NCBI GenBank assembly: GCA_018222915.1
Contig: JAAEZI010000010.1
Location: 42,944-79,876, forward strand
DNA from: Algicola sp.
GTDB taxonomy: Bacteria > Bacteroidota > Bacteroidia > Flavobacteriales > Flavobacteriaceae
DNA: 36,933 nucleotides
Direction: 5' to 3'
Each line of letters starts with the position of its first letter. The stretch's first letter is position 1. The notes beneath the pieces were generated by a model. It searched no databases. It was given only the letters and a program-made list of their open reading frames with translations, and was not told the DNA's origin. Shown in pieces: positions 14,473 through 36,836 of the stretch. The position numbers and the translations under genes are program-made.

Positions 14473-14503
14473 TAAGACAACTATCATTAATAATACCCTA
14501 CTT
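14473..14503 (-). promoter_or_regulatory. Candidate ECF-sigma promoter of fecR-receptor
   Basis: The minus strand reads AAGTAGGGTATT, ten bases, then GTTGTCTTA. The same two boxes with the same 10-base gap occur on the plus strand at 15083-15113. The second box contains GTC, common in ECF -10 elements. The predicted leader before the fecR ATG at 14460 is very short. Confidence 0.7.
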
Positions 14504-14515
14504 AATTTTAAATAT

Positions 14516-15028
14516 TTAAATATTTCCAATCTCACGACGCATTACCAACAAGGCTAGATGCATTCGTTTTTCAACGGCCTTCACAGAAATTTTCAACTCA
14601 TCACTTATCGCCTTGTACGTTTTTTTCTCTATGCGATTCATTAGAAAAACTTGCTTTTGCTTTTCAGGGAGTGTCTCTATGGTTTGCTCCAATTTTTCCA
14701 TAAACTCTTGTTCTAGCATGAGAAACTCTGGAGACTCGTTTGTTTCAGAAGGCTTCAAATAGTGTTGATGCGTTCTTACCACTTTCTCATGTTTTACCAT
14801 ATTCAAAAATAAATTGGTCGCTACTTTATATAGGTAGCTTTTCACTTTCTCGTAGTCGACCTTAGCACAATTATCCCAAAGTTTCACAAAAGTATCTTGT
14901 AAAATATCTTCGGCTTTATTGAGATCTTGCGTCTTGTAAAATATAAACCGTCTCAACGCTTTTGAATGGGTGTTGTACAGCGTTTCAAAAGTTTTTGAAT
15001 CACAAATTTTATGTTGATCTTTAGGCAT
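14516..15028 (-). CDS. ECF-type RNA polymerase sigma factor (sigma-70 family)
   Basis: A 170-residue ECF sigma factor. Region 2 (about 15-85) has the core-binding and -10 recognition helices (KAEDILQDTFVKLWDN, then SYLYKVATNLFLNMVK). Region 4 (about 112-165) has the -35-binding helix-turn-helix (LPEKQKQVFLMNRIEKKTYKAI, then SVKAVEKRMHLAL). There is no C-terminal SnoaL extension. It is followed by fecR after 55 bases. Its own upstream region holds a housekeeping TAGTTTTG box rather than the motif shared by its presumed targets, which suggests constitutive supply of sigma and regulated output. Confidence 0.93.
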   Translation of the reverse strand: MPKDQHKICDSKTFETLYNTHSKALRRFIFYKTQDLNKAEDILQDTFVKLWDNCAKVDYEKVKSYLYKVATNLFLNMVKHEKVVRTHQHYLKPSETNESPEFLMLEQEFMEKLEQTIETLPEKQKQVFLMNRIEKKTYKAISDELKISVKAVEKRMHLALLVMRREIGNI

Positions 15029-15052
15029 TTATTAGTTTAAAAGAAAGTATGT

Positions 15053-15060
15053 CAAAACTA
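15053..15060 (-). promoter_or_regulatory. Candidate housekeeping -7 box of the ECF sigma gene
   Basis: The minus strand reads TAGTTTTG, a perfect TAnnTTTG, 24 bases before the start codon at 15028. It lies next to, but facing away from, the ECF-type motif at 15083-15113. Confidence 0.5.
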
Positions 15061-15082
15061 AATAAAAAATAATTATAGAAAA

Positions 15083-15113
15083 AAGTAGGGTATTTTTTGG
15101 AACGGTTGTCTTA
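15083..15113 (+). promoter_or_regulatory. Candidate ECF-sigma promoter of the Kazal lipoprotein
   Basis: AAGTAGGGTATT (15083-15094), ten bases, then GTTGTCTTA (15105-15113), 45 bases before the ATG at 15159. All 21 box bases and the spacing are identical to the motif upstream of fecR, while the ten spacer bases differ. Confidence 0.7.
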
Positions 15114-15158: not shown

Positions 15159-16604
15159 ATGATGAGAAATTTTAAACTATTCTTTTTAAGCTTGGCTATA
15201 ATAGCCAGTTTTTTAACTGCTTGTTCTAACAACGAACCTGTTGTGGAGCAACAAACTATTGAAAAAAGTGAATCCATTACCACATCCTTAAATCAATTAA
15301 GACAACAATTTAATGATGATGGTAATGTCGTTCCTAGTAATAATCCAACAGGAAATATTGTCTTCGATTTCTGTTTTGATTTTGTGTACCCATTAACACT
15401 CTCTTATAATAACGATACAACTGTCACGGTTAATAGTTTGGAGGATTTGGTACAAATATTAATCAACTCCAACAACGAATTATACATTGATGGTATCGCA
15501 TTTCCATTCGATGTTGAAACTTACAGCGAAGATACTGACGCCATTGTTGTTGTGACCATTAACGATGAGCAAGCATTCATTGATTTATTAGCGAGCTGTA
15601 ATTTTGAGAATTTCAGTTGTGATTGCTACGAAGTTTACGACCCAGTTTGTGTTGAAATTGAAGCACCTGACGGTCAATTATTCCTTATGACCTATCCGAA
15701 CGCGTGTTATGCAGAATGCGACGGATTTACACAAGAGGATTTTGCAGAAAACTGTGCGGATGACTATAATTCTCCAGGTGGTATTGATTGTTTTGAGTTT
15801 TTATTCCCTCTAACGATAATCACCGATAATAACCAAACGATTACGGTTAATTCTCAGGAAGAACTTGACAACGCCTTATACAATTCCTATTATTTCAATT
15901 TCCAATATCCATTCCAGGTGGCGCTGTACGATCAAGCAGAAGTAGTGACCATTAATAACCAAGGGGAATTAGAAGCGCTATTAGATGATTGCTATGGCAA
16001 CCAAGGCACAAATTGCGATTGTCCTGATAACATAGATCCAGTCTGTGTGGAACTCGAATCACCTACTGGCAATATTGATATTATTAGCTTCCCAAATGCC
16101 TGCATAGCGGAATGTGAAGGGTTTACACAGGAAGATTTTGTAGATTGTGAAACTACCGGAGAATGTGATTATCCAGATGAATTTGATCCTGTTTGTGTGG
16201 AAGTTGAAGTGGAAGGTCAATTAGTCATTTTCACGTATCCAAATGCTTGTTATGCGGAATGTGAAGGCTTTACTGCTGACGACTTTGTTGATTGCGAAAG
16301 TAACACACCTGATTGTACCACAGATAACGTTGTAGAAATTTTGCTATCATGTCCATGGACTTCCAATGGAAATACCTATGTTTTTGAAGCGGATGGAAGC
16401 GTCGCTATTGAAGGTTCAGGTCTATCTACCATTGGCACTTGGACTGTAGAATTAGGAATTGAAGGTTATCCTATTGTATCAATTTTTGCTGAGATAGGTA
16501 ATTTTAATGACGATTGGAACTTCTTAGATTGTAATCTCATTAACAGTCTTTTAGTCACGAGTTCCTTGAACCCAGCTGCTAGTATCGCATTGAGTTGTGA
16601 TTAA
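15159..16604 (+). CDS. Secreted lipoprotein with three Kazal-like repeats
   Basis: A 481-residue lipoprotein: the signal ends in FLTAC (Cys22), then a polar spacer. Two copies of an approximately 90-residue acidic module follow (from about residue 70, FCFDFVYPLTL, and from about 210, CFEFLFPLTI). Three cysteine-rich repeats occur at about 154-199, 286-331 and 334-378, each with DPVCVE, (Y/F)PNAC and AEC(D/E)GFT. That cysteine and proline layout matches the Kazal serine-protease-inhibitor fold. A C-terminal beta-rich domain (about 385-481) resembles lipocalin-like domains. The protein is very acidic. It shares a predicted ECF promoter with the divergent fecR-receptor pair, so it may be a surface partner of that receptor. 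Protease inhibition is inferred, not shown. Confidence 0.85.
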   Translation: MMRNFKLFFLSLAIIASFLTACSNNEPVVEQQTIEKSESITTSLNQLRQQFNDDGNVVPSNNPTGNIVFDFCFDFVYPLTLSYNNDTTVTVNSLEDLVQILINSNNELYIDGIAFPFDVETYSEDTDAIVVVTINDEQAFIDLLASCNFENFSCDCYEVYDPVCVEIEAPDGQLFLMTYPNACYAECDGFTQEDFAENCADDYNSPGGIDCFEFLFPLTIITDNNQTITVNSQEELDNALYNSYYFNFQYPFQVALYDQAEVVTINNQGELEALLDDCYGNQGTNCDCPDNIDPVCVELESPTGNIDIISFPNACIAECEGFTQEDFVDCETTGECDYPDEFDPVCVEVEVEGQLVIFTYPNACYAECEGFTADDFVDCESNTPDCTTDNVVEILLSCPWTSNGNTYVFEADGSVAIEGSGLSTIGTWTVELGIEGYPIVSIFAEIGNFNDDWNFLDCNLINSLLVTSSLNPAASIALSCD

Positions 16605-27074: not shown

Positions 27075-28109
27075 ATGCCTAAAACGCTCAGAATAGGTCA
27101 ACCGGACATCGTACAAATTATGGACTCTTTGTCTGAACAGCTTGGCATTGCCATGACGAATAGCAATGACGATTATTGTCTTGACGTTTCTGATAAGTTG
27201 GGACGTGGATATATAAGAGGCATTCAATTTTCACATGGTTTAGGTGTTATAGAATCGCATTTAACCGTTAATAGCAAACTGCATTTTTTATTCGAAAAAC
27301 TCGATGTCAATTATCTACAGCTGCTATTTAATCTGGACGCAAAAGTTGTTCATAAATCGTCTGATTCCAAAGAAAAAACGACGATAAACAAGCTTCAGTA
27401 TTGCATGTTTGCTAACGATACAACCACCACACACCAAATTTCGATATCCAAAGAAAAATCGTCTAATTTCTTTATGCTATTAATAAATCGAAAAGTATTT
27501 GAAGAAAAGTTGATGAGCTTGACAGATGAATTTTCCAACGAATTAGAACTCATATTCAAAGATGTTAATGGTGTGAATCATATTTTTGAATCCAACTATT
27601 TTTCCTTGGAAATCTCACAATATATTGAAGAATTTAGGCGATGTGAGCATGAAGAATTTATGAAGCCAATGTTCTTGGAAGGTAAAGCCTATGAGATTCT
27701 GACCAGTCAACTCCATAATTACAATAATGGTGGTGACGACTCCAAAAAAACATTATTAAGGAAATCCACGATCGACAAGATTGAAAAAGCTGTCGATATT
27801 ATTAAAGAGGAATTGGATGTTAGAATCAATGTCTATAGTCTTGCCAAACGTGTTGGGTTGAATCAAAACACCTTGCAAAATGGCTTTAAAAAGCTTTTCA
27901 GAACATCCGTGAACGAATATATTAAGAATTACCGCATTGAAAGGGCAAAAACGCTTATGGAAAACTCTGATCTTAATATTTCTGAAATCACTTATAAAAT
28001 TGGCATAAATAGCCGAAGTTACTTTTCAAAATTATTTAAGGAGCGATATGGCATATCTCCAAGCAAATATATGGCACATCTCCAAGAGAGCAATACAAAG
28101 TCAGCTTAA
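27075..28109 (+). CDS. AraC family regulator, PchR-like (paralogue 1)
   Basis: A 344-residue regulator. The N-terminal ligand/dimerisation part begins with a helix (about 8-25) and the shared signature GRGYIRGIQFSHGLGV (about 43-58). The C-terminal AraC DNA-binding domain (about 240-338) has two helix-turn-helices: LAKRVGLNQNTLQNGFKKLF and SEITYKIGINSRSYFSKLFKERYGISP. The LQxGFK form instead of LxRxFK is typical of PchR-type regulators, known for siderophore responses. It is one of four paralogues in this window and the most divergent in its N-terminal half. Ligand and targets are unknown. Confidence 0.9.
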   Translation: MPKTLRIGQPDIVQIMDSLSEQLGIAMTNSNDDYCLDVSDKLGRGYIRGIQFSHGLGVIESHLTVNSKLHFLFEKLDVNYLQLLFNLDAKVVHKSSDSKEKTTINKLQYCMFANDTTTTHQISISKEKSSNFFMLLINRKVFEEKLMSLTDEFSNELELIFKDVNGVNHIFESNYFSLEISQYIEEFRRCEHEEFMKPMFLEGKAYEILTSQLHNYNNGGDDSKKTLLRKSTIDKIEKAVDIIKEELDVRINVYSLAKRVGLNQNTLQNGFKKLFRTSVNEYIKNYRIERAKTLMENSDLNISEITYKIGINSRSYFSKLFKERYGISPSKYMAHLQESNTKSA

Positions 28110-28203
28110 ACAACTTAATTACAGATATATAGAAAAATTAATTATCAAAATTGATAGGGTTTTAAGCCTATTAACAACCCAATTGTGTTAAAGTTAATTT
28201 CAA

Positions 28204-28225
28204 TTTTGTCAAGGCGTTTTGTCAA
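28204..28225 (+). repeat. Direct repeat TTTTGTCAA before paralogue 2
   Basis: TTTTGTCAA occurs at 28204-28212 and 28217-28225, a 13-base period, 80-100 bases upstream of the ATG at 28306. It could be a regulatory site; the spacing is not the 21 bases common for AraC-type half-sites. Confidence 0.3.
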
Positions 28226-28305
28226 TATTCTCTTTTTTTGCACCACCAACCTCACCTAACACAACTATTATATTCTAATAAAAAAACACTAAGAAGTTAC
28301 TTAGC

Positions 28306-29343
28306 ATGAGGAGTATTGAAATAACTGATGTAGAAAAGAAGTCCATAATTGAGCAGCTCAATGTTTATATTAAAGGAGACATCAAAAAAGATGATGGCGA
28401 AGAGACGCTGGTTTTTAATAATGATATTGGTATAGGCTCCATACGAAATCGAAAATTTGACTGGGGAATAGCACTCTTAGATTACGATGTTAATTTTAAA
28501 GAGGATGTCAAAATTATTTTTAACATGACTAAAGATAAAGGACCTATTGAGTTCTTATTTATCTCGAAAGGCAACTTAACTTATAATAATCAAGACAATA
28601 GTAACTATATACGTTTAGAGCGATTTCAAAATATCATTCTCTCCAATGATGTGCAATCAAAAAGCATCTATGTATTTCCCAATAGAATACAAGTCAAACT
28701 AAATATCATTCATGTTTTTTCAAAGAAATTCATGAAGAAAAAAAATCATCAAGTCGATACTATTGAAGATTCATTGCTATCCGTTTTTCAAGGGAAAACA
28801 GAAAATTTACCGTATAAGCATATTGGTAATTACAATCTCACTATAGCTGATAAAATTAAGACATTGAACGAATTTCACGGTTCAGGCATTATACGATCCC
28901 TGACGATTGAAGGTCAGCTAAATCTTATTTTAGCGTTACAAATGCTGGAGCACAAACGGTATGTAAATGATATCCATCTTACAGATAGTCTCTCCATAGA
29001 GGATATTAAGAAAATTCATAATTTGGTTGAATACATCTATGACAATGTATCTCAATCACTTACCATTAAATCACTTTCGAAAGAATGCGGACTTGGTCCG
29101 AAAAAACTTCAGTTAGGATTTCAGCTGTTGTTTTCAAAATCTATTAATGAGTATATGCGAAACGTGAAGTTGGAAATAGCTCGTGATATGATTCGAAACA
29201 CTGATAAATCGATTTCTGAAATCGTTTATGAAATAGGATATAAAAGTAGAAGTTACTTTTCAAAAATCTTTTACGAACAATATAAGATTCTCCCTATAGA
29301 TTATAAAGAAAGCCTAAAATCTGCTAAGGTTAAGAACGAATAG
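28306..29343 (+). CDS. AraC family regulator, PchR-like (paralogue 2)
   Basis: A 345-residue paralogue of the regulator encoded just upstream. It has the N-terminal signature GIGSIRNRKFDWGIALLDYDVNFKED (about 45-70) and a PIEFLFISKGNLTYN segment. The C-terminal AraC domain (about 243-340) contains LSKECGLGPKKLQLGFQLLFSKS and SEIVYEIGYKSRSYFSKIFYEQY. Its N-terminal half is closest to paralogue 4 at 35793 (both have FDWG). A 196-base gap separates it from paralogue 1. The 3' end overlaps the end of the convergent SRAP-like gene by 14 bases. Confidence 0.9.
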   Translation: MRSIEITDVEKKSIIEQLNVYIKGDIKKDDGEETLVFNNDIGIGSIRNRKFDWGIALLDYDVNFKEDVKIIFNMTKDKGPIEFLFISKGNLTYNNQDNSNYIRLERFQNIILSNDVQSKSIYVFPNRIQVKLNIIHVFSKKFMKKKNHQVDTIEDSLLSVFQGKTENLPYKHIGNYNLTIADKIKTLNEFHGSGIIRSLTIEGQLNLILALQMLEHKRYVNDIHLTDSLSIEDIKKIHNLVEYIYDNVSQSLTIKSLSKECGLGPKKLQLGFQLLFSKSINEYMRNVKLEIARDMIRNTDKSISEIVYEIGYKSRSYFSKIFYEQYKILPIDYKESLKSAKVKNE

Positions 29344-30031
29344 TTAGGTCTTTATAAATGGCTGGTTCAAGAATACCATCATAAAGAATATTATTTTTAT
29401 AAAATTCTTTGGCAATTGTGTGAGATGTAAAACAGAGGTCCTCAAAACTGGTATTACATCCAGATAATATGTCTGTATAGTGTTCGCCCAGCCATATCTT
29501 TTTATGTTGGTCATTTAACACTATAGGCATGGAATCACTCACATTGTGTAGCTTGGACATTTGAAAATTATGCTTTTCAAGAAGTATAGAAAACGTTATA
29601 AACCCGTCATGTGTTCGGTTATAAATACCAGCTAAGTAAAAAGGCACGCTCTGTTTAGGGTAGACATAAACAGGGTATACTTGTCCTTGATAATTGAATG
29701 AGGCGAAAAATCCTGAGACAATGACAACACATCGCCTATGCATTAAGGCATTTTCGTGCTCTTCATCCTGATAAATCGATCTGATATCAAGATTAAGCGT
29801 GTTTCTCACTTGTTGAAAAACATGCCAATCTTCTCTATAATTTTGTGGTAAAATACCCCAAATAGCAAGATTAATTTCATTAGGACGATCTCTCGTAATT
29901 ACCGGTAAGGACTCCTCATATAATCCATCAATAATCTCTGAAGAATTGTATAAGTTAGGAAACCGGAATGGCAGTCCTGTTTTCGATTCGATAGTGTTAA
30001 GGTCAATATGATTTGAAAGCTTGTAATACAC
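29330..30031 (-). CDS. SRAP (YedK/HMCES)-like protein without catalytic Cys2 (copy 1), GTG start
   Basis: A 233-residue protein with the SRAP fold pattern: FPNLY (24-28), AIWGILP (56-62), RRCVVIVSGFF (99-109), PFYLAGIYN (130-138), and LHNVSDSMPIVL (161-172). True SRAP proteins form a thiazolidine between Cys2 and abasic DNA. Here residue 2 is Tyr. The position of the active glutamate (GFYEW in YedK) reads GFFAS, and the NxR motif reads NLD. Only the late histidine (H162) may survive. The start is GTG at 30031; no in-frame ATG lies between it and an upstream stop, and copy 2 begins the same way. It is divergent from AraC paralogue 3 and overlaps paralogue 2 tail to tail. Confidence 0.75.
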   Translation of the reverse strand: MYYKLSNHIDLNTIESKTGLPFRFPNLYNSSEIIDGLYEESLPVITRDRPNEINLAIWGILPQNYREDWHVFQQVRNTLNLDIRSIYQDEEHENALMHRRCVVIVSGFFASFNYQGQVYPVYVYPKQSVPFYLAGIYNRTHDGFITFSILLEKHNFQMSKLHNVSDSMPIVLNDQHKKIWLGEHYTDILSGCNTSFEDLCFTSHTIAKEFYKNNILYDGILEPAIYKDLTIRS

Positions 30032-30169
30032 AATTTTAATTTGATTGCAAGTTGATGAAATAATTATTAATTGATTGTCTTTAAATCTTTTAATTATAAC
30101 TCAAAAAACAATTTTAGTGTTAAAAATTAGTAATACAGCATATTCGTAAAAACCTGTGCCTCAAGCGGA

Positions 30170-30199
30170 ATACTGTTACACAAATATGTCATACTGTTA
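30170..30199. promoter_or_regulatory. ATACTGTTA direct repeat with 21-bp period (candidate AraC-type operator)
   Basis: ATACTGTTA occurs at 30170-30178 and 30191-30199, start to start 21 bases, i.e. two helical turns, the spacing of half-sites bound by AraC-family monomers. It lies about 75-105 bases before AraC paralogue 3 and 140-170 bases before the divergent SRAP-like copy 1. Confidence 0.45.
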
Positions 30200-30216
30200 A
30201 TTAACCCTTCAAAATA

Positions 30217-30235
30217 TACCTACCTTGAATAGGTA
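30217..30235. promoter_or_regulatory. TACCTA/TAGGTA inverted repeat
   Basis: TACCTA (30217-30222) and TAGGTA (30230-30235) form a 6-bp dyad with a 7-base centre, 38 bases before the ATG of AraC paralogue 3 and just downstream of the 21-bp direct repeat. It could be a second operator or part of the promoter. Confidence 0.3.
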
Positions 30236-30273
30236 CATTCAGGTGTACAATTTTATCAAAAAATTATGTTGTC

Positions 30274-31317
30274 ATGAAACCAGAAAATAAACAAACTAGC
30301 GAATCCAGCATCTTGCTTCACGCGCTGAGAGATGGCCTTAATTGCCATGAACATGTGAGCAACGACGGGATAACCGAGCTACAGCTCAAAAACGATTCTG
30401 GACAAGGATCTATAGATCAAATCACCTTTGACAATGGCTTAACTGCCGTTAATATTGACGTGAACCTCAAAGAGGATCTCGTAATGAACATTCCCACGAA
30501 CAAGAATAATATTCTCTACTTTTTCTACAATTTAGAGGGTATTTGCTACCATAGTTTTGACAATTCTGAAAAATATTCCAAAATAGATGAACTCAAAACA
30601 GTTGTTGTAGCTACAAGCAGATACAAGCATAACATCTTAGTTATTAAGAAACATATTCCTTTTAAATGTAATATCATCACCATTAATAAAGACACTTACA
30701 TGAAGAATTTCGAGTGTCCTTATAAGCCTAAAAGAGAAAAACTCTCCAAATTGACCAAAATATTTGATATGCTCAGGGATTATTTATTTGAGTGTTCTCA
30801 TAATCTAAATATTACGGAACAACTGAGATCGATAAGAAATATATCGATGTCTGAGTGTGTCTCATCAGTTTTGCAATTACAAAGTAGATATCAATTGATT
30901 TTATCTCAACATATAGAGCAGATGTATCACGAAACTTATACGAATCGTGAGAGTTATGATATTTCGCGTCATGAGATTCAAAAAATAAGGGCCATCACCG
31001 AGCACATTATTGATAATCCTGGTCTTAATCACTCGCAAGACAATATCTGTTCACAGTTTTTCATCTCTCAATCAAAGTTACAAAGCGGTTTTAAGGCTGT
31101 ACATAATCATACGGTCTCAAATTTCACTAGAAAGGTGCGTTTAGATAAAGCGCAAGAATTGCTGATAAATTCAGATTTAAATGTCTCAGAAATTGTTTAT
31201 ACGATAGGATTCACGAGTCGCAGTTACTTTAGTAAAATATTTAAACAACATTTTGGTTGTAACCCAACAGCTTATAAGCATCGGTATAAATCAAGCATGT
31301 CAATGATTAGCATCTAA
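30274..31317 (+). CDS. AraC family regulator, PchR-like (paralogue 3)
   Basis: A 347-residue member of the same family. The N-terminal signature is GQGSIDQITFDNGLTAVNIDVNLKEDL (about 46-72), with a following NNILYFFYNLEGICYHSFD segment as in paralogue 4. The C-terminal AraC domain (about 245-340) contains QFFISQSKLQSGFKAVHNH and SEIVYTIGFTSRSYFSKIFKQHFG. It shares a 242-base divergent intergenic region with SRAP-like copy 1, which holds a 21-bp direct repeat, so it may control itself and that gene. The signal it senses is unknown. Confidence 0.9.
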   Translation: MKPENKQTSESSILLHALRDGLNCHEHVSNDGITELQLKNDSGQGSIDQITFDNGLTAVNIDVNLKEDLVMNIPTNKNNILYFFYNLEGICYHSFDNSEKYSKIDELKTVVVATSRYKHNILVIKKHIPFKCNIITINKDTYMKNFECPYKPKREKLSKLTKIFDMLRDYLFECSHNLNITEQLRSIRNISMSECVSSVLQLQSRYQLILSQHIEQMYHETYTNRESYDISRHEIQKIRAITEHIIDNPGLNHSQDNICSQFFISQSKLQSGFKAVHNHTVSNFTRKVRLDKAQELLINSDLNVSEIVYTIGFTSRSYFSKIFKQHFGCNPTAYKHRYKSSMSMISI

Positions 31318-31332
31318 TCACAGCCCTTCTTC

Positions 31333-31893
31333 CTAGTCTTTGGCTGATTCTTTCGTCTTCTCTTCCTGTACATCTTCTTCTTTATAAATCAGTTCATGAT
31401 CTTGTTTAAGACCAACAATCATGATGATATTTGTAACTGTGTTATAAAGCATAAGAATGACCACGACCATAGCACCACTTAACATAGAAGACACTAATAA
31501 CGTACTCCAGTAAATAATTCTAAACCAATTTGTTGGCACTTCATTCGATTCCGTAATCGGAATATTGAATAACTGAAACATGACTAGCGTTACGATAAAG
31601 AGAATGGTATCTATTTTTGCAATGTTAAGTACTTCAATATAATGACCATCTTTTAGTTGAGATTCGGTACCCGAACTAATTCCCAAAAGTGTTAATAATA
31701 ATGCTAATATCGTAGCTGAAGCCAATACGATAGTATTGCAAAGCATATTAATTCCCGAAAGGGAGGCATTCAACAGATTCTTCGCCTCATACCCAGAGAT
31801 GTTCCCTAAAAGAAACACGCCCACAACAATAATCATGAACGTTATTAAACCGCCATAAATAGCTCTTCTATTATTGAGTAGAAATTTTTTCAT
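31333..31893 (-). CDS. Four-helix membrane protein of unknown function
   Basis: A 186-residue protein with hydrophobic segments at about 11-32, 46-71, 90-111 and 125-160, and a charged C-terminal tail (YKEEDVQEEKTKESAKD). It is not a family I recognise. The loop sequences contain no clear metal or catalytic motif. It ends 15 bases from the end of the convergent AraC paralogue 3 and lies downstream of a terminator (31904-31931) that follows the small lipoprotein gene, so it is probably expressed separately or by readthrough. The membrane location and stress-gene neighbours are the only clues. Confidence 0.75.
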   Translation of the reverse strand: MKKFLLNNRRAIYGGLITFMIIVVGVFLLGNISGYEAKNLLNASLSGINMLCNTIVLASATILALLLTLLGISSGTESQLKDGHYIEVLNIAKIDTILFIVTLVMFQLFNIPITESNEVPTNWFRIIYWSTLLVSSMLSGAMVVVILMLYNTVTNIIMIVGLKQDHELIYKEEDVQEEKTKESAKD

Positions 31894-31903
31894 TGATTTT
31901 GAT

Positions 31904-31931
31904 ATAAAAAAAGGCCTCTGTTTGAGGCCTT
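31904..31931 (-). terminator. Intrinsic terminator of the small lipoprotein/DUF1328 transcript
   Basis: AAGGCCTC (31911-31918) pairs with GAGGCCTT (31924-31931) around a 5-base loop. On the minus strand it is followed by a T run (31904-31912). It lies 22 bases after the lipoprotein stop. Confidence 0.85.
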
Positions 31932-31953
31932 AAAATTGGTTATTTTGAAATTC

Positions 31954-32091
31954 TTAATCTACTGCATCTTCTACATCATCAGCAACATCCTCAACAGCGT
32001 CTTCGACTTTGTCTTCGTTTGTTTCTCTACAACTAGTAAATACCGTCGATACTGTAAATAGTATCAAAAATAATTTTGATAATTTTCTCAT
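31954..32091 (-). CDS. Small acidic lipoprotein (45 aa)
   Basis: A 45-residue protein that begins MRKLSKLFLILFTVSTVFTSC: a basic start, a hydrophobic core and a lipobox ending at Cys21. The mature part is only 24 residues and nearly all acidic, with a VEDAVEDV/ADDVEDAVD repeat of about 7 residues, probably a short amphipathic helix. Such entericidin-like mini-lipoproteins are often stress-induced. It is encoded 33 bases after the DUF1328 gene on the same strand and followed by a terminator, so the two likely share one mRNA. The function is unknown. Confidence 0.75.
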   Translation of the reverse strand: MRKLSKLFLILFTVSTVFTSCRETNEDKVEDAVEDVADDVEDAVD

Positions 32092-32124
32092 AATTGATTG
32101 TTTAAAGGTTAATTGTTGATTAAT

Positions 32125-32286
32125 TTATTTTTTGAGAGCACCTCTCAGAAGAGAAAGTACGAATAATACAATGAATATAAAAAATAATATTTTCGCTATT
32201 CCAGAAGCAGCTCCTGCAATGCCACCAAATCCTAATATGGCAGCGATAATAGCAATAATTACAAATGTGATTGTCCAACGTAACAT
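32125..32286 (-). CDS. DUF1328 small membrane protein (YtjA family)
   Basis: A 53-residue membrane protein. It starts [20 protein letters not shown] and continues [18 protein letters not shown], the unmistakable DUF1328 (YtjA) pattern of two hydrophobic helices joined by a small-residue GGIAGAAxGIA segment. It ends in a basic tail (LLRGALKK). Members are commonly induced by osmotic or general stress, but the molecular role is unknown. It forms a two-gene unit with the small lipoprotein. The upstream minus strand has CATATTTG, one mismatch from a TAnnTTTG box. Confidence 0.9.
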
Positions 32287-32401
32287 AATATAAACTTTAA
32301 AAGTTAATGAGACTGATTTTCAATCCCTTACCTTACAAATATGAGGCTTTTTATTTGACTGACTTAACTCATATGGCTAGATAATTAACACTAATACCAT
32401 A

Positions 32402-33106
32402 TTAAGAGATCCTTAAATTTATTTCGTCGTAACCGTCATCAAGTGTTCGCCTTAAATCTTTAATATTATCATGAGGTCCTTTTATAGGATCGTAAACAAA
32501 ATCATAAACATCGTGATGGTTGATAAGCGATTTTAAATCGTTTAAATTGTTGTTTCGATCCAACCAGGTATGGTAATCTTTCTTTTTAAATATGAGTGGT
32601 TTTAACTTTCCGAGATTTGGAATATTATCGAATTTATGAGTCGCATGAGTCACCAAAAGTGAACAGGTAATAAAGCCATCTACCACCTTGTTATAGATTC
32701 CTGCTAGACAGAAAGGTGAATGGTTTTTTAAATGCACATAATGCATGTGTAACTTACCATTGAATAGGCGCGTTGTAAAAAATCCGTTCACTATAATCAA
32801 ACAACGCCTTTTATCTAATGCGTTAGTGTAAATATCGTCGCTTAAATTTTGATTGTGAACATTCGTATTTAAAGTATTGGTAACATCTTGAAACGTATCC
32901 CAACTTTCTTCATAATCTTCTGGCAATAAACCCCAAATGGAAAAATCGATCGTTTGGCTATCTTCCATTGTAATGATGGGTAGATTAGACTCTACCAAAC
33001 CATTAATAACAGCGTTAGGTTCATATAGATTTGGAAACCTGAATTTCACGCCGAGCTCTCGTTCTATCCCTTTCAGATCAGATGTATTGGATAATCTATA
33101 AAACAT
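32402..33106 (-). CDS. SRAP-like protein without catalytic Cys2 (copy 2)
   Basis: A 234-residue paralogue of the protein encoded at 29330-30031. The two align from the start (M-F/Y-Y-R/K-LSN), through FRFPNLY (22-28), SIWGLLPEDY (56-65), KRRCLIIVNGFF (99-110), PFCLAGIYNKVVDGFIT and the C-terminal part. Residue 2 is Phe instead of the SRAP nucleophile Cys, the active glutamate position reads GFFTT, and the late histidine motif is replaced by NLGKLKPLIF. It is therefore even more degenerate than copy 1 and predicted not to crosslink abasic DNA. Start ATG at 33106. The minus strand has TACTTTTC at 33125-33132, one mismatch from a -7 box. Confidence 0.75.
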   Translation of the reverse strand: MFYRLSNTSDLKGIERELGVKFRFPNLYEPNAVINGLVESNLPIITMEDSQTIDFSIWGLLPEDYEESWDTFQDVTNTLNTNVHNQNLSDDIYTNALDKRRCLIIVNGFFTTRLFNGKLHMHYVHLKNHSPFCLAGIYNKVVDGFITCSLLVTHATHKFDNIPNLGKLKPLIFKKKDYHTWLDRNNNLNDLKSLINHHDVYDFVYDPIKGPHDNIKDLRRTLDDGYDEINLRIS

Positions 33107-33174
33107 TTTTTGTTTTAAGGACGTGAAAAGTAGCAGATTGCGTTAACTCATTCAAATGAAAAGTGTCTTCATAT

Positions 33175-33201
33175 AAAAAAGGTGCCCATTGGACACCTTT
33201 T
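33175..33201 (-). terminator. Intrinsic terminator of the DUF2383 gene
   Basis: AAAAGGTG (33177-33184) pairs with CACCTTTT (33194-33201) around a 9-base loop, with a T run continuing on the minus strand. It lies 25 bases after the stop of the DUF2383 gene. Confidence 0.8.
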
Positions 33202-33226
33202 GAATCATTATCTATCGATTAGATGA

Positions 33227-33676
33227 TTATCTCAAATCTTCTAAAGTTTTGATATTAGATAATCCATTTTCAATCGTATTTTTCTGCGACGTCAATATGG
33301 ACTTCGTTGTGGATGGCAAACTTGTTTCCTTTAAGACTTCACTGTATTCGTCTATGGCTGCTTTTTCACCACGAATCGCTTCTTCAAGCATCGATTCTTC
33401 ATCATCATTTGAAAATAAGGATTTAACATCCATCCAAGCTCTGTGTGCTTTACCAGTTAAGCTTCCTCCTTTATCGACATCTTGGTTAAATGATTTAATT
33501 TCAGACTTTAATTCATGTCCAAAATTATAACGCTCTTGAGCTTTTTCATTAAAATATGACTTTAACGCTGAATGCTCTACATTTTCTGCAGCCTTCTTGA
33601 AGCCTTTTTCAGCATCATACGTTTTTTCTAATAATTCGTTTAATTTATTTCCTACTTCTTCTGTGTAATTACTCAT
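33227..33676 (-). CDS. DUF2383 / PA2169 family four-helix-bundle protein
   Basis: A 149-residue, all-helical ferritin-like protein of the PA2169/TIGR02284 type. The first helix pair includes LNELLEKTYDAEKGFKKAAE and the second half EEAIRGEKAAIDEYSEVL, with conserved glutamates in the ferritin-like pattern. Family members are small stress-related proteins, often encoded with hemerythrin, DUF1328 or general stress genes; metal binding is possible but not demonstrated. It is separated from the downstream SRAP-like copy 2 by its own terminator, and from upstream topoisomerase IB by 172 bases. Confidence 0.87.
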   Translation of the reverse strand: MSNYTEEVGNKLNELLEKTYDAEKGFKKAAENVEHSALKSYFNEKAQERYNFGHELKSEIKSFNQDVDKGGSLTGKAHRAWMDVKSLFSNDDEESMLEEAIRGEKAAIDEYSEVLKETSLPSTTKSILTSQKNTIENGLSNIKTLEDLR

Positions 33677-33848
33677 AATTCATGTATTTAAATTTAAACG
33701 ATAGTTTGTTTTTTTGATGTCTATCGATTTTACATCATAAGCAGTCATGATTAACTTACTTACAATGCTAAATTACAGTAATCAAGATGTTTCGTTTAGT
33801 CGTTATGCTTTAAAAAATAACTCAAATACGAGTTTAATAAAATTTTAA

Positions 33849-34931
33849 CTATATGGACGGTTGGTAAGAGTCAATTAATTCTAAAACAGACATTTCAGAT
33901 GGCGTTAAATAACCCGATTGTATGGGTGCTGTGTCTATTTTAGTAAACACATCATGAAGTGAATCATTTTGGTATGACTCTACAAGAATGGGATGCACAT
34001 AATACTTTCGGCAAACATTACGAGTATTACCAAGTGCTTGTGCAGTGGCATCAAAGGCTGCTAAAATATTGTCATGAGTCTCCTTCTCTGTCTTGGGTCT
34101 GTCAAACTCAAGTAAGGATTCAAAAAAGATCACACTAGCAGACCAAGTTCTAAAATCTTTCGCGGTAAATGCCGAACCTGAAATGGTATTTAAATACTCA
34201 TTAACCATCGCACTATCAACATGATGCTTTTCACCATGACTATCAAAAAACTGAAACAATTCCCATCCAGGAATTTCTTCACATTTACTTACAAGTTGCA
34301 CTAATTTCTTGTTTCTTAAGGTGATATTATGCGCTTTCCCTTTTTTCCCTACAAACTGAAATCGCAAACGATCTTTGTATAGATGAACATGCTTACTTCT
34401 CAAGGTGGTTAATCCATAGGTCTTGTTTTTCTTGGCATAATAATCATTGCCAATTCTAATATGGGTTTCCTCCATGAGTTTAATTACCAGTGCCATCACT
34501 TTAGTTTTAGTCCATGACTTCTCTATAATGTCTTTTTCTACACGATTTCTAATTTTTGGTAAGGCGTTACCAAACTCTGTCATTTTAAAAAACTTGGTTT
34601 GGTTTTTTATTTTGTTCCATTTAGGATGGTAACGATATTGCTTACGCCTTTTGACATCTCTTCCAGTGGCTTGTAGGTGTCCATTTGATAAAACTGAAAT
34701 CTTGACGTCATCCCATGCTGGAGGTATAACCAAAGATTCAATACGCTCCAATTCTTTTTTATTTTGAATAGGCACACCATTGTGGATATATGTAAAATCC
34801 TTCTCTCTTTTTTGTCGAAGAATAGCTAATTGATGCGTATTTACATAAACTAAATCCAAAGTCTCAATGGCCGACTCTGGATGCTTCTCAATTTTTTTTA
34901 AAAGTGCTGGTGTAAGTCTTTGTACAGACAT
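33849..34931 (-). CDS. DNA topoisomerase IB
   Basis: A 360-residue type IB topoisomerase, which relaxes supercoiled DNA through a 3'-phosphotyrosine. Visible elements are the N-terminal DNA-binding part with IPPAWDDVKIS (69-79) and GRDVKRRKQYRYHP, the catalytic arginine in HIRIGND (R159), the lysine region VGKKGKAHN, the second arginine KDFRTW (R261), and the nucleophile Y311 in CRKYYVHP. As in other bacterial enzymes, Asn is found near the usual His position (ALGNTRNVCRK). It follows hemerythrin by 5 bases on the same strand, so the two form one operon. Confidence 0.93.
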   Translation of the reverse strand: MSVQRLTPALLKKIEKHPESAIETLDLVYVNTHQLAILRQKREKDFTYIHNGVPIQNKKELERIESLVIPPAWDDVKISVLSNGHLQATGRDVKRRKQYRYHPKWNKIKNQTKFFKMTEFGNALPKIRNRVEKDIIEKSWTKTKVMALVIKLMEETHIRIGNDYYAKKNKTYGLTTLRSKHVHLYKDRLRFQFVGKKGKAHNITLRNKKLVQLVSKCEEIPGWELFQFFDSHGEKHHVDSAMVNEYLNTISGSAFTAKDFRTWSASVIFFESLLEFDRPKTEKETHDNILAAFDATAQALGNTRNVCRKYYVHPILVESYQNDSLHDVFTKIDTAPIQSGYLTPSEMSVLELIDSYQPSI

Positions 34932-34936
34932 GCTAC

Positions 34937-35371
34937 TTATCGGTTGGAAGACATATAATCCTTATAGTCATCTGCCAGATTCTTTTTCTGATTTTCGGTG
35001 AGTACTTTACCAGACAACTGAAAAAACTTGTGCTCTTCATCTTCTAAGTGATGTTCAACTTTATGCTTGAGATCTTTCGCAATTTTTAGCCAAGCTGACG
35101 AATCATAATCGGTCTTCTCTAATTGCTCAATCAATTCATCAATTTCATGATGTTCAGCGATACCGTGTCTTGCTTTTTCTTGCATAAGATCAGAATCGAT
35201 TAAAGGCTTATAATAATGTCGTTCTTCAGCATCGGCATGTACTTTCAATTCCTTCCTTAAGGATATGAATATACGATCCCTTTCTTCCGTGTCTCCAGAG
35301 GTTTTAATGAGTTGATCTAATAATTCACGTTGGATATCGTGATCTTTTCTTATGGCTTCAAAAATAGTCAT
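34937..35371 (-). CDS. Hemerythrin HHE domain-containing protein
   Basis: A 144-residue four-helix protein with the His/Glu ligands of the HHE cation-binding domain: KDHD (His10-11 area), VHADAEERHYY, AEHHEIDELIEQL and VEHHLEDEEHKFF. Such proteins bind a di-iron centre and are implicated in handling oxygen, nitric oxide or peroxide stress. It is the first gene of a pair with topoisomerase IB. Upstream on the minus strand are TACTTTTT (one mismatch from a -7 box) and a 10-bp perfect inverted repeat at 35402-35429. Confidence 0.87.
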   Translation of the reverse strand: MTIFEAIRKDHDIQRELLDQLIKTSGDTEERDRIFISLRKELKVHADAEERHYYKPLIDSDLMQEKARHGIAEHHEIDELIEQLEKTDYDSSAWLKIAKDLKHKVEHHLEDEEHKFFQLSGKVLTENQKKNLADDYKDYMSSNR

Positions 35372-35401
35372 GGGTCTTGTGTTACATTAATAAAAAGTAT
35401 T

Positions 35402-35429
35402 GCCTCAGTAACAGTGACTTTACTGAGGC
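35402..35429. promoter_or_regulatory. Perfect 10-bp inverted repeat upstream of hemerythrin
   Basis: GCCTCAGTAA (35402-35411) and TTACTGAGGC (35420-35429) around an 8-base loop. On the minus strand AATACTTTTT follows, so it may be an operator just upstream of the hemerythrin promoter or a weak terminator. Confidence 0.5.
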
Positions 35430-35535
35430 GCAACTAACCAATTAAATTATCAGGAAGCTATTCGCTCCTTAGATAGTGTTAAAATTAAAACAAACCAAGA
35501 ATCTTGAAGTGCTGTATCTCATGAGATTTTAACCC

Positions 35536-35573
35536 AAATAAAAACCCAGCAATCTTTAAAAAAAATGCTGGGT
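35536..35573 (-). terminator. Minus-strand terminator hairpin with no upstream gene
   Basis: An 8-bp stem, 35544-35551 with 35566-35573, and a 14-base A/T loop. The T run is present only on the minus-strand side, so it should stop a transcript coming from the right. Confidence 0.6.
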
Positions 35574-35620
35574 CTTATCCCTAACTAAACTATACTTCAA
35601 CATGATTGAAGAGGTATGAC
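35536..35620 (-). ncRNA. Candidate small RNA of about 85 nt
   Basis: On the minus strand a perfect TAATTTTG box (35626-35633) is followed by a small hairpin CTTCAA/TTGAAG (35595-35611), then a terminator: ACCCAGCA (35566-35573 region) and TGCTGGGT (35544-35551 region) with TTTTATTT after it. No ORF longer than 15 codons fits. A -33 box is not evident, so this is a prediction only. Confidence 0.35.
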
Positions 35621-35625
35621 AATCA

Positions 35626-35633
35626 CAAAATTA
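35626..35633 (-). promoter_or_regulatory. Candidate -7 box of the small RNA
   Basis: The minus strand reads TAATTTTG, a perfect TAnnTTTG match; transcription would begin near 35620. Confidence 0.35.
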
Positions 35634-35740
35634 GGTTTATACATACTTTGAAAGTGCTCTATCCCTTATAATTTTAACGTTTTCCTGTAAATTCCGTTAA
35701 AAAAAATTTAAATTAGCGTTCTAGGTATCCATTACGCCTA

Positions 35741-35763
35741 CTTTTACGTATATATAGTAAAAG
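35741..35763. promoter_or_regulatory. CTTTTAC/GTAAAAG dyad before AraC paralogue 4
   Basis: CTTTTAC (35741-35747) and GTAAAAG (35757-35763) form a perfect 7-bp inverted repeat with a 9-base AT-rich centre, 29 bases before the ATG at 35793. The position fits an autoregulatory operator. Confidence 0.4.
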
Positions 35764-35792
35764 CATTTAAGCTAACAGGAACCATTAGAATC

Positions 35793-36836
35793 ATGAAAGA
35801 AATAATTATTACACCAGAAAACGCCAAGGATCTCATTAATCAAATCCAGGAAGCCATTGGTGGTACCATTGATGAAAAGTGGAATGAATACAGCTTAACA
35901 TTAGATAATGAAAATGCCAGAGGTACCATCAAGTTTATGCCGTTTGATTGGGGCGTCAATTTACTCAACTTGAACATTGTATTTTTTAAGGAAATCATCT
36001 TTAACATACAAGCAAGTAAGTTCAACCCTATCCGCTTTATGTATAACTACAAAGGTCATTTTAAACACCGATTTGGTATCAATAACGACGAGAAATTGGT
36101 AGAACAGTATCACTCATTAATTTTTACTAATAAAACAGGTGGTGCCAATCATATCCATTTTCCGAAGGATAAACAATTAGAAACGAGTATTATACAAATT
36201 GTAAGGAAAAAATTCTTAAAGAAACGTACGACGAACGCATCTCTTTTAAATGAACGCTTGTATGAAGTGTTTGTGGATACAGATCACGATAATAGGTTTG
36301 CTCATTATGGATTGCTCAACTTAAAAATGGCCGATTACATCAAAAAAATGAACCATATTAAGTCTAAAGGCATGGTTAAAGTGCTGAAAATTGAATCGAT
36401 GGTTTACGAAATTTTATCGCTTCATATCCAGCAACACAATAAATTCCAAAGAGGCGTTCAATTACCTACCTCGTTGACGAATACGGAACTGAAGGTGATT
36501 CGAAAATTAGGAAACAAAATTATTAAAGACCCTTCTTTCAATTATTCATTGGAACAATTATCAATGGATTCTGGTTTATCACAAGCCAAATTACAGGATG
36601 GTTTTAAATTCCTATACACTAGAACAGTTACGGAATATGTGAGACATATTCGATTGGAAGCTGCTCGTGATTTAATGAAAAATGCCGATCTAAATGTCTC
36701 TCAAGTAGTTTATAGTATCGGATTCACAAGTAGAAGTTATTTTTCAAAAATATTTAAGGAAAAGTACAATGTAACACCAAATGAGTATCGTAAGAATGTC
36801 TTAAATAATTTAGTGATTGAAGAGAATGCTGCTTAA
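35793..36836 (+). CDS. AraC family regulator, PchR-like (paralogue 4)
   Basis: A 347-residue paralogue. The N-terminal signature is ARGTIKFMPFDWGVNLLNLN (about 47-66), followed by NPIRFMYNYKGHFKHRFG. The C-terminal AraC domain (about 243-337) contains LSMDSGLSQAKLQDGFKFLY and SQVVYSIGFTSRSYFSKIFKEKYNVTP. It is very like paralogues 2 and 3, with the same length and same SRSYFSKIF motif, which points to local duplication. It is divergent from the hemerythrin-topoisomerase operon across 421 bases, which makes that operon a candidate target. Confidence 0.9.
   Translation: MKEIIITPENAKDLINQIQEAIGGTIDEKWNEYSLTLDNENARGTIKFMPFDWGVNLLNLNIVFFKEIIFNIQASKFNPIRFMYNYKGHFKHRFGINNDEKLVEQYHSLIFTNKTGGANHIHFPKDKQLETSIIQIVRKKFLKKRTTNASLLNERLYEVFVDTDHDNRFAHYGLLNLKMADYIKKMNHIKSKGMVKVLKIESMVYEILSLHIQQHNKFQRGVQLPTSLTNTELKVIRKLGNKIIKDPSFNYSLEQLSMDSGLSQAKLQDGFKFLYTRTVTEYVRHIRLEAARDLMKNADLNVSQVVYSIGFTSRSYFSKIFKEKYNVTPNEYRKNVLNNLVIEENAA

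Follow-up and report, generated by a model that had tools for sequence, protein, structure and literature searches.

The closest described counterparts of the locus studied here are the Fec system of Escherichia coli and the ECF sigma factor circuits of Bacteroides. In E. coli, transcription of fecIR is described as not autoregulated and as controlled by sigma-70, and FecI serves a single promoter, located before fecA (PMC9249621). Bacteroidota possess many ECF sigma factors, of which 50 are reported in Bacteroides thetaiotaomicron (PMC12596196), and few of their recognition sequences are known. According to an account from 2020, no motif was known for any alternative ECF sigma factor of B. 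thetaiotaomicron (PMC7366714); a TGTT sequence near the -10 position is described at two ECF-linked promoters of this species, as a motif that was not statistically significant (PMC12596196). Within the same bacterial family as our locus, an ECF-type promoter, SM6, was derived from start-site mapping in Flavobacterium psychrophilum (PMC9723704). Finally, in a structure of sigma region 4 bound to a -35 element, residue T171 of SigW is reported to contact A-34 (PMC6713349).

The locus lies in the window, i.e. the whole stretch of 36,933 nucleotides analyzed from an Algicola sp. genome. It resembles the FecI-FecR-FecA system in having a FecI-like sigma factor, a FecR protein and a TonB-dependent receptor (Table 1), here with an N-terminal domain that matches FecR_C below the cut-off, and in having a sigma gene that is apparently not under the control of its own sigma factor. 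Unlike in E. coli, the fecR and receptor genes lie behind a proposed promoter of their own sigma factor, and a second, identical proposed promoter faces a divergent lipoprotein gene; transcription that starts at the sigma gene may also continue into fecR. The combination of a Bacteroidota ECF sigma factor, an anti-sigma factor and an outer-membrane transporter is shared with the ECF/anti-sigma PULs of Bacteroides as described (PMC11501099, PMC12596196), whereas the absence of SusD from the scanned neighbors, a defined TAGGG/TAGGA-type -35 box and a lipoprotein partner of another family set the locus apart. The described F. psychrophilum promoter has a CGT box and precedes several T9SS genes (PMC9723704), whereas the element reported here contains TGTY and points toward fecR-receptor and lipoprotein genes. 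A word search of the literature found no report of this motif; letters inside figures escape such a search, and a published group-level motif is possible.

Table 1. Genes and proposed regulatory sites of the locus (window coordinates)
Feature	Position	Strand	Details
TonB-dependent receptor, 770 aa	11225..13537	-	Pfam TonB_dep_Rec_b-barrel 1.6e-16
FecR-type sigma regulator, 308 aa	13534..14460	-	Pfam FecR 1.5e-21 and FecR_C 6.8e-07, both above cut-off
Proposed sigma-dependent promoter of fecR-receptor	14473..14503	-	-35 box AAGTAGGGTATT 14492-14503, -10 box GTTGTCTTA 14473-14481
ECF sigma factor, FecI-like, 170 aa	14516..15028	-	recognition-helix residues V149, K154
Housekeeping-type -7 box TAGTTTTG (TAnnTTTG) of sigma gene	15053..15060	-	22 bp from edge of lipoprotein promoter
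Proposed sigma-dependent promoter of divergent lipoprotein	15083..15113	+	-35 box 15083-15094, -10 box 15105-15113
Predicted lipoprotein, 481 aa (...LTAC-SNNEP)	15159..16604	+	repeated beta-rich domains, Cys-rich repeats

The sigma factor contains the Pfam domains Sigma70_r2 (residues 17-81) and Sigma70_r4_2 (residues 111-160), with no sigma-3 family listed, and scores 125.5 bits against TIGR02985, the model of Bacteroidota FecI-like sigma factors, which has a curated cut-off of 126.4. Its nearest relative among the named genomes belongs to Psychroserpens algicola (76% identity). The receptor frame overlaps fecR by 4 nt. Its matches to Plug (1.1e-4) and, over residues 26-94, to FecR_C (1.9e-4) both fall just below the Pfam cut-off; the N-terminal domain is thus FecR_C-like by sequence and possibly of the STN type. 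Pfam listed no STN model for the receptor, and no PDB sequence matched it at E ≤ 0.01. SusD had no match in the lipoprotein or in six other scanned neighboring genes. Farther along the window, at 27075-36836, four genes encoding proteins of 344-347 aa resemble AraC-type regulators by eye.

Two exact copies of the two-box motif AAGTAGGGTATT-N10-GTTGTCTTA were recovered, one within the 55-nt gap between the sigma stop codon and fecR and the other before the divergent gene, on opposite strands and with no mismatch over 21 box bases. The preliminary description had reported both copies at these positions, before the fecR-receptor genes and before a lipoprotein gene that it labeled Kazal, and its account holds in every coordinate and strand. 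The gap is 10 bases in both copies and the spacers are unlike, as had also been noted (ATTAATGATA vs TTTTGGAACG). The motif ends 12 nt before the fecR ATG and 45 nt before the lipoprotein ATG. None of 100 dinucleotide-shuffled versions of the window contained a match, even with 3 mismatches allowed. In the source genome (3.35 Mb, 94 contigs, 95% complete), the same threshold recovered the window pair only, and the reversed pattern, used as a control, matched once.

To collect relatives of the cassette, 110 genomes of the family were searched with the sigma factor (E ≤ 1e-25), giving matches at 131 places in 76 genomes. The 120 regions fetched cover 121 of these places; eight others belong to the window or to previously collected longer loci, and G036:C9 and G020:C43 were left out of the cassette set. 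The set also took in the other longer loci and 80 named GTDB loci, and 7 of its 217 cassettes, identical to others in sigma and downstream DNA, were dropped. FecR adjoins sigma in 199 of the remaining 210 cassettes. A matrix was refined from the window motif, and a site was defined as a match above 10 bits. These 210 cassettes also served as the training set of the matrix, which scores the fecR-side and lipoprotein-side sites of the window at 32.3 and 27.6 bits, respectively.

Sites were found in 177 of 210 sigma-fecR gaps and, on the divergent side, in 187 of 209 cases; 166 of the 210 cassettes have both. A total of 33 gaps and 22 divergent sides have no site above 10 bits. Shuffled regions exceeded this score in 0/210 and 1/209 cases and the opposite strand in 0/210 and 10/209 cases on the fecR and divergent sides, respectively. 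The group consensus is RGTAGGRTWWTT-N10-RTTGTTTTA. When the two halves were scored apart with free spacing, the consensus spacing was found in 175 of 178 cases on the fecR side and in 182 of 190 on the divergent side; the shuffled matches obtained in the same manner (5 and 11) include none at that spacing. The median distance from the motif end is 18 nt to the first in-frame fecR ATG (176 cassettes) and 33 nt to the divergent open reading frame (172 cassettes). Among the 20 longer loci, 17 had been chosen through the motif itself, and 11 of these are among the 210; when these 11 are removed, the counts are 166/199 for the sigma-fecR site, 176/198 for the divergent site and 137/155 for pairs with the same -35 hexamer. 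The claim that the motif is tied to the ECF sigma group is thus borne out by an element that is oriented, rigidly spaced and promoter-like and that precedes fecR-receptor and lipoprotein genes. The element is not private to this locus: the paired arrangement is found again across this large family, whose members live in the sea and in soil, with sigma relatives in 76 of 110 genomes and both sites in 166 of 210 cassettes.

With the motif in place of the sigma factor as the query, matches with up to 2 mismatches were obtained in 53 of 397 family genomes, compared with 5 genomes for the reversed pattern. Of 30 loci retrieved by motif, 16 have a window-like sigma gene within 3 kb, and all 16 have a second copy (up to 5 mismatches) 550-700 bp away on the other strand. 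The other 14 loci lie elsewhere, and 5 of them precede an open reading frame of 55-63 aa.

A held-out check covered 148 genomes of the phylum with 48 sigma places; 18 of these places, which lacked a locus of their own, and the locus of the window were left out, and 29 new loci were scanned. One of the 29 has a sigma factor identical to a training one and was excluded, and close kin of the others may remain in the training set. Among the 14 FecR-linked sigma factors scoring above 120 bits, a site above 10 bits was found on the fecR side in 11 and on the divergent side in 12, compared with one fecR-side site and no divergent site for the 13 sigma factors below 100 bits. The motif therefore belongs to this sigma subgroup, and it occurs in at least one further family (L367). 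At L370, each side has a TCAGGA-type site, the two scoring 9.7 and 7.7 bits; L359 has the divergent site only, L369 (FecR present, above 120 bits) has neither site in place, and L368 (131 bits, no FecR found) has no site. On the opposite strand of the divergent side, matches above 10 bits were seen in 3 of 29 loci (L369, L371, L372); of the 13 sigma factors below 100 bits, two have an opposite-strand match of this strength.

The two sites of a cassette resemble each other most in the -35 half. The same -35 hexamer is present on both sides in 148 of 166 cassettes and differs in 18, and the mean within-pair identity is 0.89 for the -35 box, 0.77 for the -10 box and 0.39 for the spacer. Between cassettes, -35 identity drops with sigma identity, to 0.66 when the sigma factors are 40-50% identical. 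The source genome contains three further cassettes, with sigma paralogs 45, 41 and 40% identical to that of the window: the cassette on contig C51 has TTGGGACA on both sides, that on C42 has TCAGGAG on both sides, and that on C7, where the divergent gene is ffh, is mixed, with GTAGGAA and GTAGGGG (hexamers GTAGGA/GTAGGG). Paralogous cassettes within one genome differ in the -35 box (GTAGGG, GTAGGA, TCAGGA, TTGGGA). When divergent sites were shuffled within genomes (24 genomes with at least two paired cassettes, 56 cassettes), 5000 trials gave a mean of 21.7 and a maximum of 35 hexamer matches, compared with 45 observed. The preliminary description had offered the whole two-box sequence as the recognition sequence of this sigma factor; its sigma-specific part is mainly the -35 half, while the -10 half, (R)TTGTYTTA, is common to the paralogs.

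The -35 box covaries with the recognition helix of sigma region 4. With hexamers grouped into classes of our own definition, residue 154 is K in 144/144 sigma factors of the TAGGG/TAGGA class, Y in 19/19 of the CAGGA class and H in 3/3 of the TGGGA class. At residue 149, V, I or Q predominates in sigma factors whose -35 box ends in G, and T, R, K or Q in those whose box ends in A; Q accompanies G in 11 cases and A in 6, and exceptions include L123, L155, L179 and L192. K154 of the window sigma factor is aligned with SigW T171, so that, as in SigW and SigE, the same helix would read the -35 element; the element differs in being GTAGGG-like rather than GAAAC/GGAAC as described for those factors (PMC6713349), and a natural K/Y/H exchange at the contact position accompanies the change of box. 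The phylogenetic tree implies about five class changes, with CAGGA and TGGGA each arising once. The residue-154 correlation is perfect and, because class changes on the tree are this few, thinly replicated.

Position, orientation, spacing, recurrence and pair identity of the sites, together with the helix correlation, are direct results of the computation, and from them we infer that this sigma factor uses the sites as promoters. We assign a probability of about 0.88 to the reading in which the sigma factor encoded between the two copies recognizes both as its promoters, with the full working proposed below. A motif with 21 box bases is long enough to suit a separate transcription factor that regulates both genes, in which case the boxes would not be sigma promoters. 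It is very improbable, however, that this explains a motif that is non-palindromic, is rigidly spaced and keeps a single orientation (0/210 opposite-strand sites in the sigma-fecR gaps), the more so as its -35 half tracks the sigma recognition helix and its TGTY -10 half is like the TGTT described, as non-significant, at the two B. thetaiotaomicron ECF-linked promoters (PMC12596196). Recent duplication of one upstream region, which would make the identity a matter of ancestry instead of function, could account for window copies that agree in all box bases. It can practically be dismissed, as the spacers of the same copies differ, within-pair identity over the 166 cassettes is far lower in the spacer than in the -35 box, and pairs recur in cassettes with sigma factors 40-50% identical.

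The strongest competitor accepts the sites as sigma promoters and holds that the paralogous sigma factors cross-react, so that the -35 classes would reflect clade-level drift instead of an address code. The classes are indeed clade-bound, with about five changes on the tree, the -10 half is shared among paralogs and 18 of 166 pairs are mixed. Sharing of a hexamer across opposite sides of the gene in 148 of 166 cassettes and the within-genome permutation speak against this explanation, as does the alignment of the changed residue with a known base contact, and we regard cross-reaction as unlikely, though considerably less so than the other two.

The sigma gene itself appears to be transcribed by the primary sigma factor. 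Its upstream region had been judged to look like a housekeeping promoter, and the box identified there (Table 1) conforms to TAnnTTTG, described as the -7 box of the primary sigma factor (PMC7366714, PMC9723704). This box is conserved: of 187 cassettes, 107 have it in the stretch that separates the sigma ATG from the divergent motif, compared with 9.5 expected from shuffles, and it is present in 23 of 25 window-type cassettes, the window included, 20 of these 23 having it 21-22 bp from the motif edge. Sigma-type sites pointing at the sigma gene are rare (the 10/209 opposite-strand matches above 10 bits on the divergent side). The sigma-gene and lipoprotein promoters, placed back to back, are probably too close for two polymerases, and activation may therefore lower sigma synthesis. 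Separately, in the cassette of another family at L369, a site of 28.7 bits points at the sigma gene; an autoregulated sigma factor is possible there.

The divergent gene usually encodes a lipoprotein. Of the 174 divergent genes that encode at least 100 aa, a regular expression for the lipobox classified 150 as lipoprotein-like, and 15 of the 24 misses were judged to be lipoproteins by eye; an earlier, simpler expression had given 137 of 177. Export of lipoproteins to the surface is reported to involve a signal (LES) of acidic residues just after the lipid-bearing cysteine (PMC5080379). At least two acidic residues occur at positions +2 to +7 in 135 of the 150 lipoprotein-like proteins; the window lipoprotein has SNNEP at +2 to +6, with one acidic residue. 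Exceptions include a 7TM transglutaminase protein (Pfam) at L278, which those at L109, L130 and L288 look like. The lipoprotein gene is missing from the C7 cassette of the source genome (L043:5236-5266) and from G045 (L181), where the motif is kept and faces ffh; in relatives such as L052, a lipoprotein gene lies between sigma and ffh. In the cassette at L056:7069-9909, the motif occurs three times on the divergent side (7069, 7231, 9879), ahead of a lipoprotein gene and other small genes.

Window-type and sister-type lipoproteins are homologous (profile match probability 99.6, E 1e-23) and have in common the beta-rich repeats and a C-terminal, possibly lipocalin-like domain; the Cys-rich repeats are absent from 14 of 14 aligned sister proteins. 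The structural model of the window lipoprotein is of moderate quality (mean pLDDT 75.4, 77-92 over residues 391-480, pTM 0.38), and a fold search with it gave no PDB match at E ≤ 0.001; matches to the lipocalin-type folds of TP0435 and Tp0751 (probabilities 0.99 and 0.98, E about 0.1) are a hint only, as are sub-cut-off Pfam matches of a sister lipoprotein to META (0.001) and GH43_C (0.0086). No family member tested had a Pfam match above the cut-off. The label Kazal could not be sustained, as Pfam returned no Kazal family for the lipoprotein at E ≤ 10, a search in which the HMMER filters drop most matches above about 0.1. The pattern C-x-C...DPVC...YPNxCxAxC in the lipoprotein resembles Kazal domains.

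Taken together, the finding holds and extends further than first stated, to a sigma-linked cassette whose promoter-like sites are duplicated and specific to the sigma factor. By analogy with the Fec paradigm, a ligand bound at the outer-membrane receptor would send a signal via the N-terminal domain to FecR, which would free or activate the sigma factor. The sigma factor would then drive fecR and the receptor gene in one direction, which would raise the levels of both the sensor and the regulator of the sigma factor, and the surface lipoprotein gene in the other. As the weakest step of this scheme, the lipoprotein might act as a ligand-binding partner of the receptor. The sigma factor itself would be made from the housekeeping promoter, and sigma-loaded polymerase on the lipoprotein promoter may hinder its synthesis by occlusion. 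Paralogous cassettes would be kept apart by their -35 boxes, which match on the two sides of each sigma gene and would be recognized by the helix of region 4, and their circuits would thereby be insulated from one another.

A broader proposal, for which we see about even odds, is that Flavobacteriaceae maintain insulated cassettes in which the address of the sigma factor is written twice and co-evolves with helix residue 154, and perhaps 149, allowing up to four circuits per cell without cross-talk. Each sigma factor would be kept off its own promoter and would drive its regulator, receptor and lipoprotein, the last from a promoter that overlaps the housekeeping one, and would in doing so throttle sigma synthesis; some members would have gained targets in trans, notably a 55-aa protein. 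Genomes alone suffice here to propose a recognition sequence together with its variants and the helix residues that match them, and target prediction and specificity swaps are therefore directly testable. The analysis also links surface signaling with a family of lipoproteins and with a very small conserved protein, and the cassettes may supply sigma-promoter pairs, already separate in nature, with which genes could be controlled in this phylum.

The regulon had been described as small. This is partly right, because candidate targets in trans exist, among them two cytochrome-type lipoprotein genes in the source genome. The core pattern was not enriched there at two mismatches (55 sites vs 70 for the reversed pattern), and a wrong-spacing control with a gap one base too long gave 3 matches vs 6 reversed. 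The seven core sites with 0-1 mismatch comprise the window pair, one in the C7 cassette, two before the cytochrome lipoprotein genes and two others: L299, where no open reading frame was detected, and L300, followed only by a 58-aa frame at a distance of 205 nt. The two cytochrome sites, both of the TAGGG class, lie 131 nt before a lipoprotein-like gene with a cytochrome part (C58:23423-24787, 0 mismatches) and 164 nt before a homologous lipoprotein-like cytochrome gene (C74:16233-17615, 1 mismatch). The C58 protein has a Big_9 domain and scores 307.1 against a model of SO2930-type diheme cytochromes with a cut-off of 313.3. Of 32 listed places with relatives of this protein, 30 were examined: a site of 21.7-26.4 bits precedes the four best matches (two in the source genome, one being the query, and one each in G045 and G005), and the other 26 have no site reaching 10 bits within about 350 nt upstream, where shuffled stretches reach at most 13.6 bits. 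Because the site is confined to the four best matches, its link to the cytochrome lipoproteins appears young and is uncertain.

The small protein of 55 aa (L024:1257-1424(-), L384-L413), by eye a putative membrane protein with one helix, has no homolog in the source genome at E ≤ 1e-4. In other genera, 29 of 30 homologs are preceded by a site above 10 bits, compared with one on the opposite strand; one of the 30 (L408) had been seen earlier through its motif (L004). In G188, in a 15-kb locus where no sigma cassette was seen, a further copy of the motif (L059:7129-7159) lies 44 nt before the gene for an 871-aa protein with a signal-peptide-like start.
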